In this document: positions 3,069 to 8,877 of the stretch, in pieces
Position numbering within the stretch: the first letter of the stretch is position 1
Layout of the letters: each line of letters starts with the position of its first letter
Virus record (IMG/VR): IMGVR_UViG_3300046167_000511
Span: 1-33,577 of that record
Direction: 5' to 3' (one strand)
Source: a virus
DNA length: 33,577 bases
The notes under the pieces: generated by a model
Told to the model about the DNA's origin: nothing
Databases searched by the model: none
The model's input: only the letters and a program-made list of their open reading frames with translations
Program-made: the position numbers and the translations under genes

Positions 3069-3308
3069 ATGGATAAAATACAAACGTTTATCAGTGAGTT
3101 CGAAATAGAATTTATTGATGATTTAAGGCGATTAGGTCTTAAAAAGAAAGATGTGTTGGAAAAGTTAGAAATGACCTTGCCCACATTGAATTCAAAGATT
3201 CAAAACCCTGATACATTAACTGTTAAGGATATAAAGAATCTTATTGAATTAGAATTTAATTTAGAAACTATAAAGAATGAGTACCGAGAAATCGAAAACA
3301 ACTCCTAA
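3069..3308 (+). CDS. Small HTH DNA-binding protein
   Basis: A 79-residue protein. Residues about 18-50 (DLRRLGLKKKDVLEKL, then TLPTLNSKI) look like a Cro/CI-type helix-turn-helix: a 'xxRRxGLKKxDVxExL' first helix pair, then 'TxPTLNSKI' as recognition helix. It overlaps the following ERF gene by 32 bases, which suggests co-expression with the recombination cassette. A regulator of the early genes is plausible, but there is no divergent partner gene and no clear operator. It could also be a small adaptor protein. Confidence 0.5.
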   Translation: MDKIQTFISEFEIEFIDDLRRLGLKKKDVLEKLEMTLPTLNSKIQNPDTLTVKDIKNLIELEFNLETIKNEYREIENNS

Positions 3309-3750
3309 AAAAGTTGTTAGTAAAAAGATGGATTTTCCAAATTGGAGTATCAATCTTAAAATATTTAGAATTCAAAATGAGCTTGAAGCTATCATTAAAG
3401 ATGCTAAAAACCCTTATTTTAAATCTAATTATGCAGACATCAATGCGATGTTAGAACAATTACAACCTTTATTAAATAAATACAAAGTTGCAATTGAACA
3501 ACCAATGAGAGATGGTAAAGTTTTTACTATTTTGACTTGTGTTGAAACAGGAGATTCTAAATCATCAAGTTTAGAATTACAACCTATGTCTGATCCACAA
3601 AAACTTGGAAGTGTTATTACATATTATAGAAGATATACATTACAAGGTTTGCTTGGAATTAGAACTAAAGATGATGATGCGAATATAGCATCAGGACAAA
3701 CTATTAACGAAAGCAGAGCAACAAGTTCTGTAACAATAAATGAAATTTAA
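3277..3750 (+). CDS. ERF-family single-strand annealing recombinase
   Basis: 157 residues. The core matches the ERF superfamily: NPYFKSNYADINAMLEQLQP, a central beta region, then SDPQKLGSVITYYRRYTLQG and LLGIRTKDDDAN. ERF proteins anneal complementary single strands during phage recombination and genome circularisation or repair. The N-terminus is Lys-rich and the C-terminus short, so the protein is on the small side of the family. Two genes on lies a RecE-like nuclease, which would supply the 3' single strands; the intervening gene encodes a protein with an SSB-type tip. The three form an obvious recombination module. Confidence 0.85.
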   Translation: MSTEKSKTTPKKVVSKKMDFPNWSINLKIFRIQNELEAIIKDAKNPYFKSNYADINAMLEQLQPLLNKYKVAIEQPMRDGKVFTILTCVETGDSKSSSLELQPMSDPQKLGSVITYYRRYTLQGLLGIRTKDDDANIASGQTINESRATSSVTINEI

Positions 3751-4028: not shown

Positions 4029-4051
4029 GGGGGTTAATCACCCCCTTTTTT
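4029..4051 (+). terminator. Intrinsic terminator after SSB-like gene
   Basis: GGGGGT, a five-base loop and ACCCCC are followed by six T residues, starting seven bases after the stop of the SSB-like gene. A very similar stem recurs at 10248-10266. Genes continue on the same strand, so it may act as a partial terminator or attenuator. Confidence 0.75.
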
Positions 4052-4064
4052 AATACACTATATT

Positions 4065-4205
4065 ATGAATGAACATATGTTATATCACAATGTTTTAGCC
4101 AATTTCGATAAAAAGCTAAAAGAAGAAGAAGAAAAAAATAAACAATTAAAAGAAGAAAATAAAAAACTAAAAGATGAACTTAAAAAACTTAGAGATAAAA
4201 AATGA
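4065..4205 (+). CDS. Small coiled-coil protein
   Basis: A 46-residue reading frame starting 14 bases after the terminator T-run. After MNEHMLYHNVLANF it is almost entirely Lys/Glu/Asn/Leu in heptad-like spacing (LKEEEEKNKQLKEENKKL), predicting one long charged coiled coil. Its 3' end overlaps the RecE-like gene by 32 bases in another frame. No family recognised. The heptad pattern and position argue for a real gene, but low-complexity A-rich sequence can produce such frames by chance. Confidence 0.45.
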   Translation: MNEHMLYHNVLANFDKKLKEEEEKNKQLKEENKKLKDELKKLRDKK

Positions 4206-4971
4206 TTCAATACAAGATTATCATTCTCAAAAATCAATATCAGCAAGTAGCTTAAAGTATATAGCTGAAACATCTGTTTGGCATTACTTAAATAGAAAAC
4301 CCATAAAAGAAACAAAGTTTATGAAGATTGGCAATGCCGTTCATACAATTTGTTACGAGGGTATTGAAAAGTTTGGCGAACAATATTATGTTATGCCCAA
4401 AGTAGATAAGAGAACTAAAGAGGGTAAAGAACTTAATGAAAAGTTAATTAAATGGTCAAAGGGTAAAGTAATAATTGATGAACAAGAAGATCAAATAATA
4501 AGGGGTATATATGAAAACTTTAACAAGAGTAAAAAGGCACAAATGTATGCAAAAGGCAAAGTTGAGGTTTCCCATTATGGAACATATCAAGATATAGATG
4601 TAAGGGTTAGACCTGATTGTATGGGTGATGATTGGATAAGTGATATAAAAACTTGTCAAAACAGTAGTCCTAAAAGATTTCTTCGTGATATTTTAGACAG
4701 AAACTATCATATACAAGCATATTTTTATTCTTTGATGTTGGGTTATGATCCTAAAAAATTTAGATTTATAGCTTGTGAAACCAATCACCCTTATGGTGTA
4801 GAGGTGTATGGATTAGATGAAATTTTTATTGAAAATGCAAAAGAAGATTTTGAAAAAGCATTTACTTTTTGGAAGCTATATAAAGAGAAAAACATCATTA
4901 CTGGTTATCAATCTTCAAATTTTGATAAAGATGGTTCGATTATATTGAAAGGATTTAAAAGAAAAAAATAA
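4174..4971 (+). CDS. RecE-like PD-(D/E)XK exonuclease
   Basis: A 265-residue nuclease of the RecE C-terminal/DUF3799 type. Visible motifs: SISASSLKYI near the N-terminus (the 'S.S.lk.l..sP' signature), KIGNAVHTICYEG (GxAxH motif), VRVRPDCMGDDWISDIKT (D...DxK catalytic core) and HIQAYFYSLM (QxxxY motif). Such enzymes degrade duplex DNA 5' to 3' to expose a strand for an annealing protein, here the ERF protein upstream. The ATG at 4174 overlaps the coiled-coil gene. Length fits the isolated nuclease domain of phage RecE-like proteins. Confidence 0.85.
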   Translation: MNLKNLEIKNDSIQDYHSQKSISASSLKYIAETSVWHYLNRKPIKETKFMKIGNAVHTICYEGIEKFGEQYYVMPKVDKRTKEGKELNEKLIKWSKGKVIIDEQEDQIIRGIYENFNKSKKAQMYAKGKVEVSHYGTYQDIDVRVRPDCMGDDWISDIKTCQNSSPKRFLRDILDRNYHIQAYFYSLMLGYDPKKFRFIACETNHPYGVEVYGLDEIFIENAKEDFEKAFTFWKLYKEKNIITGYQSSNFDKDGSIILKGFKRKK

Positions 4972-4988
4972 TTATTAAATAATATAAA

Positions 4989-5663
4989 ATGAAAGATTTA
5001 AAAATTATCAAAGACATTGTTAATGAATATTTTCAAATTGACATTGCTAAAAAAACAAGAATGCAAGTTTATGTTGATGCAAGGGGTATTTATTATAGTT
5101 TATCAAGGGAATTAGTTCCAGGTGCAACCTATGAAAAATTAGGTCAATCTGTAAACTTAAACCACGCAACAGTAGTTAACGGAATGAAACAATTTAATTT
5201 TTTAATTGAATATAATAAATCAACCCAAAATAATTACTTAACTTTAAAAGCAATATGTTTAAAAAATATAGATAAGTTGGCAAATCCATTTGAAAAATAT
5301 TTAAGTAAAGAGGATAAAATGCAACATAGTGTAATGGAATATTTAGCATTCCAATATCCTAATGTTTATGCTATTCACGTTGCAAATGAAGGAAAAAGAA
5401 GTCCATTTGAAAGATTTAAGTTTAAATATTTAGGTGGAAAAGCAGGTGTTCCTGATATACTTATATTTAGAGGAGGTGGAACTGGTAGGTATGGTCTTGC
5501 TATTGAACTTAAGATTGGTTATAACAAGCCAACCGATAGCCAAAAAGATGCTTTAGAAAGATTAAGAAAAGAGAATTGGGAATGTCATTGGACAAATGAC
5601 TATGATAAAACTATTGAAATTATAGACCTTTATTTATCTAAACCCAATGATTCAGAGTTATAA
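4989..5663 (+). CDS. DnaA domain IV-like HTH fused to VRR-NUC nuclease
   Basis: 224 residues in two parts. Residues about 25-72 (ARGIYYSLSREL, then NLNHATVVNGMKQF) follow the pattern of DnaA domain IV: a basic helix, then the (D/N)HxTV recognition helix. Residues about 110-215 match VRR-NUC (PD-(D/E)XK superfamily): E134 in ANEGKRS, GVPDILIF with D156, and AIELKIG with E173 and K175, followed by SQKDALERLRKENW. VRR-NUC enzymes act on branched or flapped DNA, and phage members are often resolvase-like. The DnaA-like part would direct the nuclease to specific sites. No ATPase domain is present. Neighbours are recombination and replication genes. Both halves look intact; the fusion is the unusual point. 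Confidence 0.75.
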   Translation: MKDLKIIKDIVNEYFQIDIAKKTRMQVYVDARGIYYSLSRELVPGATYEKLGQSVNLNHATVVNGMKQFNFLIEYNKSTQNNYLTLKAICLKNIDKLANPFEKYLSKEDKMQHSVMEYLAFQYPNVYAIHVANEGKRSPFERFKFKYLGGKAGVPDILIFRGGGTGRYGLAIELKIGYNKPTDSQKDALERLRKENWECHWTNDYDKTIEIIDLYLSKPNDSEL

Positions 5664-5664
5664 A

Positions 5665-5901
5665 ATGGTTTACTGGTCAGAATCTAAACAAAGGATTCGA
5701 TATACTGTTGTTCATAATTTTGAGGATTTTGAAAACTATACTTATATCGGTTCGCTTACAAAGGTTGAATTTGATTTACTTATTGAAGCATTATTCTTAA
5801 AGTTTCAAGATGAGGAAATATCTAATGAAGATGTTCAATTAATGTATGATCGATTGAGAAAGTTTTGCAATGAAATAAAGAATATTACCGAGAACTTATA
5901 A
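5665..5901 (+). CDS. Hypothetical protein
   Basis: 78 residues from the ATG that follows the previous stop by one base; an in-frame ATG at 5647 would add six residues and overlap the nuclease gene. It begins MVYWSESKQRIRY and has an acidic helical C-terminal half (LTKVEFDLLIEALFLKF). No family recognised. Its place between the VRR-NUC fusion and a winged-helix replication protein suggests an accessory early function. Confidence 0.6.
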   Translation: MVYWSESKQRIRYTVVHNFEDFENYTYIGSLTKVEFDLLIEALFLKFQDEEISNEDVQLMYDRLRKFCNEIKNITENL

Positions 5902-5906
5902 ATTAA

Positions 5907-6590
5907 ATGAAAAAAAGTTATTATGCTATCATACCTGCATTTGTCAGATATGACCAAACACTAACCCCTAATGCCAAATTATTGTATGGCGAAATTACTG
6001 CTCTATGCAATGAGAAAGGTTTTTGTTTTGCAAGAAATAAATATTTCGCTGACCTATATAATGTAAAAACAAGATCAATTACCGATTGGATAGCACAATT
6101 AAAAACTCAAGGATATATAAAGTTAAAAATGACTTATAAGGAAAATTCAAAGGAAATTGAAAGTCGTGAAATATATATCACAAATTTTCTTGAGGTAGTG
6201 AAAAAAAATGCACCCCCTATGGAAAATAATCACCAGGATAATATATATAATAATATAAATAATAATACAGAAGAATATAAAGGGAAAGAATTTTCAGATA
6301 TGGTTTTAAAATCTTTTAAGCCAATATGTGATTTATTTCCAATTCAAACACAACCAAAAACACAAGCCGATAAAAAGGCTTGGATTGATTGTATAGATAA
6401 ACTTGAAAGGTTAGATGGATATTCACCAAGAAAAGTTTATTACATAGTCCAAAAAGTTAGAACAGATGATTTTTGGAAAAACAATTTTTTGACCATTTTA
6501 AAACTTAGAAAGAAAAATAAAGATGGTTTGAAATACATTAACCTATTCGAAGCCAAATTTGGTAAGAATCTAAAACAAATAAATATATGA
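5907..6590 (+). CDS. Winged-helix replication initiation protein
   Basis: 227 residues. The N-terminal third (YYAIIPAFVRYDQTLTPNAK, then LLYGEITALCNEKGFCFARN and ITDWIAQLKTQGYIKL) is a winged-helix domain of the HTH_36/phage replication O type. A low-complexity Asn/Tyr-rich linker (around residues 105-125) separates it from a helical C-terminal region that may bind helicase or DNA, as in DnaD/O-like proteins. The stop overlaps the next start by ATGA. With the primase-helicase downstream it probably marks the origin or loads the helicase. No iterated binding sites were recognised inside the gene. Confidence 0.65.
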   Translation: MKKSYYAIIPAFVRYDQTLTPNAKLLYGEITALCNEKGFCFARNKYFADLYNVKTRSITDWIAQLKTQGYIKLKMTYKENSKEIESREIYITNFLEVVKKNAPPMENNHQDNIYNNINNNTEEYKGKEFSDMVLKSFKPICDLFPIQTQPKTQADKKAWIDCIDKLERLDGYSPRKVYYIVQKVRTDDFWKNNFLTILKLRKKNKDGLKYINLFEAKFGKNLKQINI

Positions 6591-6892
6591 GTAAAAAGAA
6601 TAAACATCAAGAAAGAAAAGAAATTCCTGTTTTTTCAGGAGTTCTAAAATATTTTCCAAAAGCAATTAGATATGTTTCTAAAGTTAGTTATGTTGGAAAT
6701 GAACAACACAATCCAGGAACACCACTTCATTGGGATAGGGAAAAATCTAAAGATGAATTAGATGCTTGTGTAAGGCATTTAATAGATCACACGGAACAAC
6801 CAGTTGATGATGATGGATTATTACATCTTGGTAAAGCTGCTTGGAGAACACTTGGTGCATTGGAGAAATTTTTAGAGATGAACGATGAATAA
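6587..6892 (+). CDS. dGTP_diPhyd_N (DUF5664)-type nucleotide hydrolase
   Basis: 101 residues. FSGVLKYFPKAIRYVSKVSY, then GNEQHNPGTPLHWDR, DELDACVRHLIDH and HLGKAAWRTLGALE match the small phage family annotated as dATP/dGTP diphosphohydrolase N-terminal domain. Its conserved E/H residues resemble all-alpha NTP pyrophosphohydrolases. The family is implicated in trimming deoxypurine triphosphate pools, and related enzymes accompany PurZ in 2-aminoadenine phages. No purZ-like gene is visible here, so a general pool-shaping role is more likely. Start by ATGA overlap; the stop overlaps the next start. Confidence 0.7.
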   Translation: MSKKNKHQERKEIPVFSGVLKYFPKAIRYVSKVSYVGNEQHNPGTPLHWDREKSKDELDACVRHLIDHTEQPVDDDGLLHLGKAAWRTLGALEKFLEMNDE

Positions 6893-7214
6893 ATCTCTTG
6901 TTAAAGAACTAAAAGCAAAAGCTGAAATCGTAGCCGATAACTTTTCCAAAAAGAATCGTGAAGGTAATTTTAACAATGAAATATTTAAAGTTGTTGAGGT
7001 TATTCCAATGTCAGATCATACGGCTTCGGTTATATTTAAAAAGAACACTGGAAAGAAAGCAGTTTTCTTTTTCTACTATCTCAATAGAGGTATGTCAAAG
7101 GGTTGGCAATATTTTGTACCAACCGATGCCCATATTATTGGTATGCAATCATTTAATTTTTATAAATTAGAAGTTGAAAGGAATAATTATAAAGAAAACT
7201 TTAATGAAAGATAA
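6885..7214 (+). CDS. Hypothetical protein
   Basis: 109 residues. Basic N-terminal helix (MNKSLVKELKAKAEIVADNF), then a beta-rich segment (VEVIPMSDHTASVIFKKN, KAVFFFYYLNRG) and a Trp/Tyr-containing end. No family recognised. It overlaps the previous gene by eight bases and the primase-helicase gene by 11, so it belongs to the replication operon and may be an accessory factor. Confidence 0.65.
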   Translation: MNKSLVKELKAKAEIVADNFSKKNREGNFNNEIFKVVEVIPMSDHTASVIFKKNTGKKAVFFFYYLNRGMSKGWQYFVPTDAHIIGMQSFNFYKLEVERNNYKENFNER

Positions 7215-8877
7215 ATTTTTAGATTTTGGAATCGACATTGGTTTCAAACAAGGGGAGTTCCACACTACTTGTCCAAAATGTAGTAGTACAAGAAAAAAGA
7301 AAACCGAAAGGTGCTTATCAATTAACGAACCAAAAGGTTTATTTAATTGTCATCATTGTGGATATAGTGGTAATGTAAATCTTCAACCAAAAAAAGAATA
7401 TGTAAAACCAATAGAGGTTCAATCAGAACTATCGGATAAAACTTTAAAGTGGTTTGCAAAAAGAGGTATATCCGAAACCACAATCGTTAATTGGAAAATA
7501 AGTGAATCCATAGAGTATTTTCCACAAGTCAAAAAAGAAAGAATTGCAATCAACTTTAATTACTATCGTGAAAAGCAATTAATAAACATAAAGTATCGTG
7601 ATGGTCAAAAGAACTTTAAACTATTTAAAGATGCTGAACTAATCTTCTATGGTCTTGATAATATCAAGGAAATGGAAAAGATTTATATTGTAGAGGGTGA
7701 AATAGATGCTTTGTCTTTACACGAAGCAGGTCTTTATAGTGTTTGTTCAGTTCCTAATGGTGCATCTAAAGGATCTCAACGATTAGAATATCTTGATAAT
7801 TGTTGGGAATACTTTGTGGATAAAACCGAGATTATATTATGTACCGATAATGACCAAGCAGGATTATCACTACGAGGTGAACTTGCACGAAGATTTGGAC
7901 AAGGTAGGTGTAAGTATGTAGAATTTGGCGATTATAAAGATGCTAACGACATATTAATCAACAAAGGTGCAAGTGAACTTCGAGAAGTTGTTAGTAATGC
8001 AAAGAACTTTCCGATTGAAGGTGTGTTAAATATTAACGATATTTGGGATAGTGTTTTAAACTTTAACGAGAATGGGATTAAGAATTATAGTGTGCGATTG
8101 GGAAACTCTAATGAGTATTATAACATTAGCTTCGGAGAATGGACTGTATGCACAGGGATTCCAAATGCAGGAAAGTCAGATGTCATCGACCAAATATGTG
8201 TTAATCTTGCATTACAGGAGGACTTTCGAGTAGCAATGTTTTCACCTGAAAGCTACCCTTATGAATCCCATATTAAAAGGTTAGCAAACAAGGTTAATGA
8301 GAGAGAATGTAACACTCAAGATTTAAACAACACAAAAGCATTTATAGAGGAACACTTTTTCTTTGTTCGAATAGACATTGAAAACTTAACCCTAAAAGGC
8401 ATTTTAGATGCTTTTAAGCAACTTGTATTTCAAAAAGGTGTAAATGTATGTGTGATTGATCCATACAATATGTTAGACCATTCTGCTCAACGAGATTTTA
8501 CTTATGTTGGAAAGCTACTTTCAGAGATCACACAATTCTGCCAACAAACAAACACTCATTTGTTTTTAGTAGCACACCCAAGAAAAATGGAAAGCATAGA
8601 TGGAAAGTATAGAGTTCCCAACCCCTATGATATTTCTCAATCAAGCGATTTCTTCAATAAAGCATATAATTGTATCACGGTTTATAGGAATCTTGGACAA
8701 AAAACTATTTATGGAAGTGATAGTGTTCAAGTATATGTTCAAAAGGTTAAGAGGAAAGAGAATGGTAAACAAGGCGATTTTATGGTAGCACCTGACTTTC
8801 ACAATGGAGGTGTATATAAAGAAATAGATAAAGACAAACAAAGGTTTGAAGTAATAAAAGATAATATACCTTTTTAA
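7204..8877 (+). CDS. Bifunctional primase-helicase (T7 gp4-like)
   Basis: 557 residues from the ATG at 7204 (the frame is open further upstream, but that would extend into the previous gene). N-terminal zinc ribbon C23-P-K-C26 ... C49-H-H-C52. TOPRIM primase core with IYIVEGEIDAL (residues 160-170) and ILCTDNDQAG (about 215-225). C-terminal DnaB/T7-type helicase domain with Walker A GIPNAGKS at 318-325, VNVCVIDPYNML as Walker B, and LFLVAHPRK as the H3/H4 region. It would unwind the fork and synthesise primers. No DNA polymerase gene is present, so it presumably works with the host replicase. Confidence 0.92.
   Translation: MKDKFLDFGIDIGFKQGEFHTTCPKCSSTRKKKTERCLSINEPKGLFNCHHCGYSGNVNLQPKKEYVKPIEVQSELSDKTLKWFAKRGISETTIVNWKISESIEYFPQVKKERIAINFNYYREKQLINIKYRDGQKNFKLFKDAELIFYGLDNIKEMEKIYIVEGEIDALSLHEAGLYSVCSVPNGASKGSQRLEYLDNCWEYFVDKTEIILCTDNDQAGLSLRGELARRFGQGRCKYVEFGDYKDANDILINKGASELREVVSNAKNFPIEGVLNINDIWDSVLNFNENGIKNYSVRLGNSNEYYNISFGEWTVCTGIPNAGKSDVIDQICVNLALQEDFRVAMFSPESYPYESHIKRLANKVNERECNTQDLNNTKAFIEEHFFFVRIDIENLTLKGILDAFKQLVFQKGVNVCVIDPYNMLDHSAQRDFTYVGKLLSEITQFCQQTNTHLFLVAHPRKMESIDGKYRVPNPYDISQSSDFFNKAYNCITVYRNLGQKTIYGSDSVQVYVQKVKRKENGKQGDFMVAPDFHNGGVYKEIDKDKQRFEVIKDNIPF

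Follow-up and report, generated by a model that had tools for sequence, protein, structure and literature searches.

The window, that is, the whole stretch of 33,577 nucleotides analysed here (IMG/VR record IMGVR_UViG_3300046167_000511, positions 1 to 33,577), carries a gene whose 224-aa product combines a DnaA domain IV fold at about residues 2-93 with a complete VRR-NUC nuclease at residues 97-217, a division supported alike by Pfam, by profile searches of the PDB and by AlphaFold modelling (Table 1). The gene lies among recombination and replication genes, and the replication setting proposed for it in a preliminary description of this DNA was right. The order of genes is kept among relatives: a small HTH-like ORF, Erf, a protein with a DDDLPF tail, a RecE-like exonuclease (DUF3799), the fusion, ORF84, HTH_36 and a primase-helicase. 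The small protein between Erf and the exonuclease is SSB-like by its DDDLPF tail only. Between its gene and that of the exonuclease, positions 4030-4053 contain a G/C hairpin with T's behind it (gggggttaatcaccccctttttt), which resembles an intrinsic terminator within the cluster. Positions 6587-6892 encode a 101-aa protein whose match to dATP/dGTP diphosphohydrolases is confined to their N-terminal domain; this gene is missing in some relatives, or other genes are inserted there.

Table 1. Features of the fusion locus, with positions in the window unless another contig is named, and the evidence for each.
Feature	Position	Strand	Evidence or remark
Erf-family single-strand annealing protein	3277..3750	+	Pfam ERF 2.6e-21
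RecE/exonuclease VIII-like exonuclease, DUF3799	4174..4971	+	Pfam 1.5e-17, PHROG 4e-51
Fused CDS, DnaA domain IV-like reader and VRR-NUC nuclease	4989..5663	+	ATG start, 224 aa; Pfam, PDB, model
DnaA domain IV-like domain, residues 2-75	4992..5213 (Pfam match 5004-5189)	+	Pfam, PDB profile, genome search, fold
R24, equivalent of E. coli DnaA R399, minor-groove Arg	5058..5060	+	Alignment; Arg in 59/61 modules
R32, equivalent of E. coli DnaA R407	5082..5084	+	Arg in 61/61 modules
N58-H59-A60, start of recognition helix (E. coli D433-H434-T435; Bacteroidota DnaA D-H-A)	5160..5168	+	Alignment
Linker helix, residues 77-93	5217..5267	+	Secondary structure of AlphaFold model
TTG of L97, probable internal translation start, aligned with the ATG of free VRR-NUC	5277..5279	+	Conservation, context, L197
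Predicted second product, free VRR-NUC, 128 aa	5277..5663	+	Inferred from conserved internal start and stand-alone relatives
Catalytic PD-Xn-EXK site: D156 (5454-5456), E173 (5505-5507), K175 (5511-5513)	5454..5513	+	Invariant in 31 fused proteins
ORF84, small conserved neighbour, overlaps 3' end of fusion by 17 nt	5647..5901	+	Beside fused and split forms
HTH_36 replication initiator-like protein	5907..6590	+	Pfam 9e-11, PHROG 4.5e-30
Toprim primase / DnaB-like helicase	7204..8877	+	Pfam, PHROG 4e-83
Module-exchange pair	L095:1895-2545 (fused) vs L109:1936-2662 (split)		Near-identical nucleases, different DnaA-IV partners

DnaA domain IV is normally the DNA reader of the replication initiator. 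In the 224-aa protein, the Pfam family Bac_DnaA_C matches residues 6-67 with an E-value of 2.3e-7 and 31.2 bits, marginally below the cut-off of 31.5 bits; the corresponding score in the genome search was 33.7 bits, above the cut-off. With a profile made from ten relatives, the five best PDB hits to this half are all DnaA (1j1v, E = 5e-6), and the modelled half superposes on the DnaA-DBD/DnaA-box structures 1j1v and 3pvp at 1.4-1.5 Å over the whole domain (TM 0.82-0.85). The model used was computed with 31 diverse relatives (pLDDT 87), as opposed to a poor one computed with ten close relatives (pLDDT 67). The assignment of the N-terminal half to DnaA domain IV, made earlier from the letters alone, is borne out by Pfam, PDB profile and fold alike. 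A pairwise identity to DnaA of 21-27% for the window copy is low, as it might be for an unrelated helix-turn-helix that merely resembles domain IV, but all 31 diverse fused relatives match both TIGR00362 DnaA and Bac_DnaA_C, the PDB profile hits are DnaA proteins, the fold agrees over the whole domain and the contact residues are retained, and we consider such a mere resemblance extremely improbable. The 224-aa protein gave no AAA match that would correspond to the AAA+ ATPase domain III, and it is not a DnaA replication initiator. Nor did PADLOC, which was used to look for a role in defence, give a hit for it.

The C-terminal half is matched by the Pfam family VRR_NUC at residues 131-197 (E = 6.8e-5; 23.3 bits, where the cut-off is 23.8), by the VRR-NUC structure 4qbl in the PDB search by sequence (E = 4.7e-9), and by the same structure in the comparison with the model (TM 0.70-0.75). 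Both Pfam families are found separately in 31 of the 31 diverse fused relatives, and the identification of this half as VRR-NUC stands. P155, D156, E173 and K175 are unchanged across these proteins and form the PD-Xn-(D/E)XK active site of VRR-Nuc enzymes (PMC4103454); among the other nuclease residues named in the preliminary description, E134 and G153 are likewise invariant and L174 is nearly so, whereas V154 varies. Stand-alone VRR-Nuc proteins are dimers that act as four-way junction (Holliday) resolvases (PMC4103454). The fusion shares with the resolvases psNUC (4QBL), stNUC and saNUC the fold, the PD-Xn-EXK site and a phage-type size (PMC4103454), but differs from them by the additional N-terminal DNA reader, and its resolvase activity is predicted. 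Judging from the Erf and RecE neighbours, the nuclease is most likely to be read as a branch resolvase of the phage recombination cassette.

A search for the same architecture, suggested earlier as a check, recovered 51 distinct fused proteins, 33 of them at less than 95% identity, in three IMG/VR scans, on marine viral contigs. Chance or mis-assembly as the source of the fusion was ruled out, because independent contigs from many metagenomes carry it. Three fused proteins were used as queries against 50,697 GenBank phage records, and in no record was 80% of a query covered; the literature library searched contained no paper that describes a DnaA-IV-VRR protein. Stand-alone DnaA-IV proteins do occur in GenBank phages of Flavobacterium, Olleya, Cellulophaga and Tenacibaculum; the DnaA-HTH proteins (PF08299) of the first three contain the same module, some of them in replication or recombination clusters, but they are not joined to a nuclease. 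In bacterial genomes, a first scan for relatives returned none and a second returned only two phage-like MAG contigs, one with VRR alone and one split. Phage contigs of this kind lie within MAGs labelled Gammaproteobacteria and Woesearchaeota (L200, L201), where they are probably mis-binned. The GC content of 26-37%, the relatedness of the DnaA-IV module to proteins of flavobacterial phages and a terminase whose nearest counterparts are those of Bacteroides and Phocaeicola phages suggest that the hosts of the fusion-bearing phages are probably Bacteroidota.

In more distant relatives, two genes occupy this locus: the first encodes a DnaA-IV protein of 122-150 aa and the second a VRR-NUC of about 123 aa, with either a short gap between them or an out-of-frame overlap of 11 to 113 nt. 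Comparison of these sequences indicates that the fusion gene arose from two formerly adjacent genes. In L183 (4998-5712), L186, L187, L189 and L193, the DnaA-IV and VRR-NUC genes overlap by 77 nt out of frame, and the tail of DnaA-IV encoded over this overlap is conserved (IHPGFLRYADKKSIRKVFNKRG-like). The ATG of the split nuclease genes falls where the joint lies in the fusions, and the fused genes themselves have a potential start there: ATG, GTG or TTG occupies the joint column of the alignment or its left neighbour in 33/33 fused representatives, a count that is equalled by no other codon pair (the next best, 28/33, is a conserved Met). Leucine at the joint column is encoded by TTG in 14 of 14 cases, against 11% overall and 36% at most for other leucine columns, and in columns elsewhere that exchange Met with Leu or Val, most of the Leu and Val residues are encoded by codons that could not serve as starts. 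Six further fused genes from another clade have TTG one codon earlier. On the tree, the start codon at the joint has changed at least five times, always within ATG/GTG/TTG.

The context of the joint codon also resembles that of a start. An A is present at position -3 in 73% of the joints, compared with 85% of the fused genes' own starts and 32% of control codons, and the 18 nt upstream of the joint codon are A-rich and C-poor. In Flavobacterium johnsoniae, whose mRNAs are without Shine-Dalgarno sequences, initiation is favoured by an A at this position (PMC6847099). One relative is a natural deletion (L197:4962-5432), in which the DnaA half is gone and the exonuclease gene continues straight into the end of the linker, followed by the TTG and a complete VRR-NUC, with the limit that an upstream ATG could there serve as start instead of the joint TTG. 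Together, the conservation of the start, the TTG bias, the changes on the tree, the A at -3 and this deletion make it likely that the gene yields both fused and free nuclease, as far as products can be predicted from sequence; in shallow clades, the joint start codons could be inherited relics. Long and short in-frame products of one gene have a precedent in mcrB, which makes McrB-L and McrB-S (PMC3874153). The fusion resembles this type of gene in that an initiation codon is conserved where its two domains meet, with surroundings like those of a start; the proteins are unrelated, however, and McrB-S was shown by experiment whereas the phage short form is predicted.

To assess what the reader may recognise, we compared the DNA-contact residues of 61 distinct phage DnaA-IV modules (<90% identity, residue numbering counted from S467) with a published list of the base-contact positions of DnaA (PMC5043019) and with the role described for R399 (PMC5742627). 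Loss of the DnaA-type arginines and recognition residues, which would have spoken against the domain assignment, was not observed, with Arg at the R399 equivalent in 59/61 modules, Arg at that of R407 in 61/61 and His at that of H434, H59 in the window copy, in 61/61. The module thus shares with DnaA domain IV (PF08299; 1J1V, 3PVP) the minor-groove Arg, the helix Arg and the recognition His as well as the fold, but it occurs in a phage protein without the AAA+ ATPase or other DnaA domains, it is joined to a nuclease, and in the window copy several base contacts are changed. Position 435 is Thr in E. coli, mostly Ala in the phage modules, and Ala in both Bacteroidota DnaA proteins compared, those of Parabacteroides and Phocaeicola. 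A reading of this Ala as altered specificity was dropped, since its presence in both of these proteins marks kinship with Bacteroidota DnaA rather than a new specificity. At positions 399, 433, 434, 435, 438 and 439, 17 of the 61 modules, including five from fusions, share the residues of Bacteroidota DnaA. Some relatives, L095 among them, agree with the two proteins at 433, 435, 438 and 439, and the window copy differs from them at 423 (E), 432 (L), 433 (N), 438 (V) and 439 (N), so that among positions 423, 432, 433, 435, 438 and 439 it matches at 435 only.

The preliminary description had proposed that the protein could target DnaA-box DNA and nick a phage origin or attack or occupy the host oriC. 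On this reading, the fusion alone would be active, guided by DnaA boxes either to the phage origin, for nicking, or to host oriC, for cutting or occupation, and the start at the joint would be a relic. The retained equivalents of R399, R407 and H434, and the 17 modules that equal Bacteroidota DnaA at six contact positions, speak for such a nuclease. However, DnaA boxes were not enriched in the window relative to shuffles or permuted patterns, and in 21 loci of fused phages (218 kb) they were at the level of chance, with 34 seen against a permuted-pattern mean of 30.5. Neither the window nor the fused-phage loci contain convincing iterons, tandem repeats or clusters of 7-8-mers of the kind expected of a phage origin. 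Because DnaA boxes are not enriched in the fused phages, origin nicking or attack on oriC is not supported. The divergence of the window copy at five contact positions and the retention of a start codon at every joint also argue against this reading, as does the fact that the known substrates of VRR-Nuc enzymes are branched DNA rather than specific duplex sites (PMC4103454), and we regard it as quite unlikely. An apparent avoidance of DnaA boxes was rejected as well, because the depletion seen against shuffles disappeared against permuted patterns.

Over all pairs, mean identity is 33% for the reader half and 58% for the nuclease half. When fused or split status is placed on the VRR tree, parsimony requires four changes, two of which are forced by well-supported branches. 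Between the fused L095/L098 and the split L109/L110, the nucleases are 94% identical and the DnaA-IV parts 42% identical, and because nearly the same nuclease thus carries different readers, we conclude that the reader has been exchanged between phages. Stand-alone DnaA-IV proteins of about 150 aa are encoded directly upstream of terS-terL in other marine phages (L086:3992-4456 and many of L069-L121), and are candidate late-gene regulators.

DnaA itself can act as a transcription regulator. The occurrence of stand-alone DnaA-IV without an adjacent VRR-NUC indicates that the job of the module need not be nuclease targeting, and the position of these genes just before terS-terL, at the boundary of early and late genes in many related phages, makes it a serious rival that the DnaA-IV module is a transcription regulator, joined to the nuclease for the sake of co-expression or dosage and not of targeting. 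Gene overlap and fusion are two forms of translational coupling, and the loss of the reader in L197 is consistent with this reading. On the other hand, divergent phages with the split pair keep the reader beside the nuclease within the recombination cassette, and fused or split status has changed more than once; these two observations suggest a shared task of reader and nuclease, and we consider the regulatory explanation unlikely.

The reading that we favour, with moderate confidence, is a two-gene fusion in which a VRR-NUC branch or Holliday nuclease is in part tethered by a DnaA-type reader and in part free by way of the start at the joint. The nuclease would have kept its own start there, and hence one mRNA would probably yield two in-frame products, a tethered DnaA-IV-VRR of about 26 kDa and a free VRR of about 15 kDa. 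The VRR half is expected to act as a dimer; free homodimers would resolve the recombination or replication branches made by the adjacent RecE-like exonuclease and Erf annealase, whereas a full-length chain, present once or twice in a dimer, would keep that dimer at duplex sites read by the DnaA-type half. The sequences themselves show the architecture, the intact catalytic and principal DNA-contact residues, the relatives with separate genes, and the conserved start codon with its context; we infer that the internal start is used, that the dimers mix and that the reader binds a specific site. A more far-reaching proposal is that many phages have captured a DnaA reader of host type and use it to tether a junction nuclease to origin-type sites (host oriC or phage origin), with the internal start deciding how much of the nuclease is tethered and how much is free, and with exchange of the reader between phages in the manner of a specificity subunit; this we put forward tentatively, as possible but doubtful.

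Beyond what the preliminary description had noted, the present analysis identifies a family of such fusions, relatives in which reader and nuclease are encoded by two genes, and the conservation of a start codon at the joint. The fusion is built of known parts and is not a new kind of system. What it illustrates is that DnaA domain IV recurs in Bacteroidota-type phages as a portable DNA-reading module, and that its fusion with a nuclease of resolvase type has happened repeatedly. Because the joint has kept a start codon, the production of a tethered and a free nuclease from one phage gene can be tested directly, and the fast-changing reader offers a natural series for the evolution of DnaA-type specificity.
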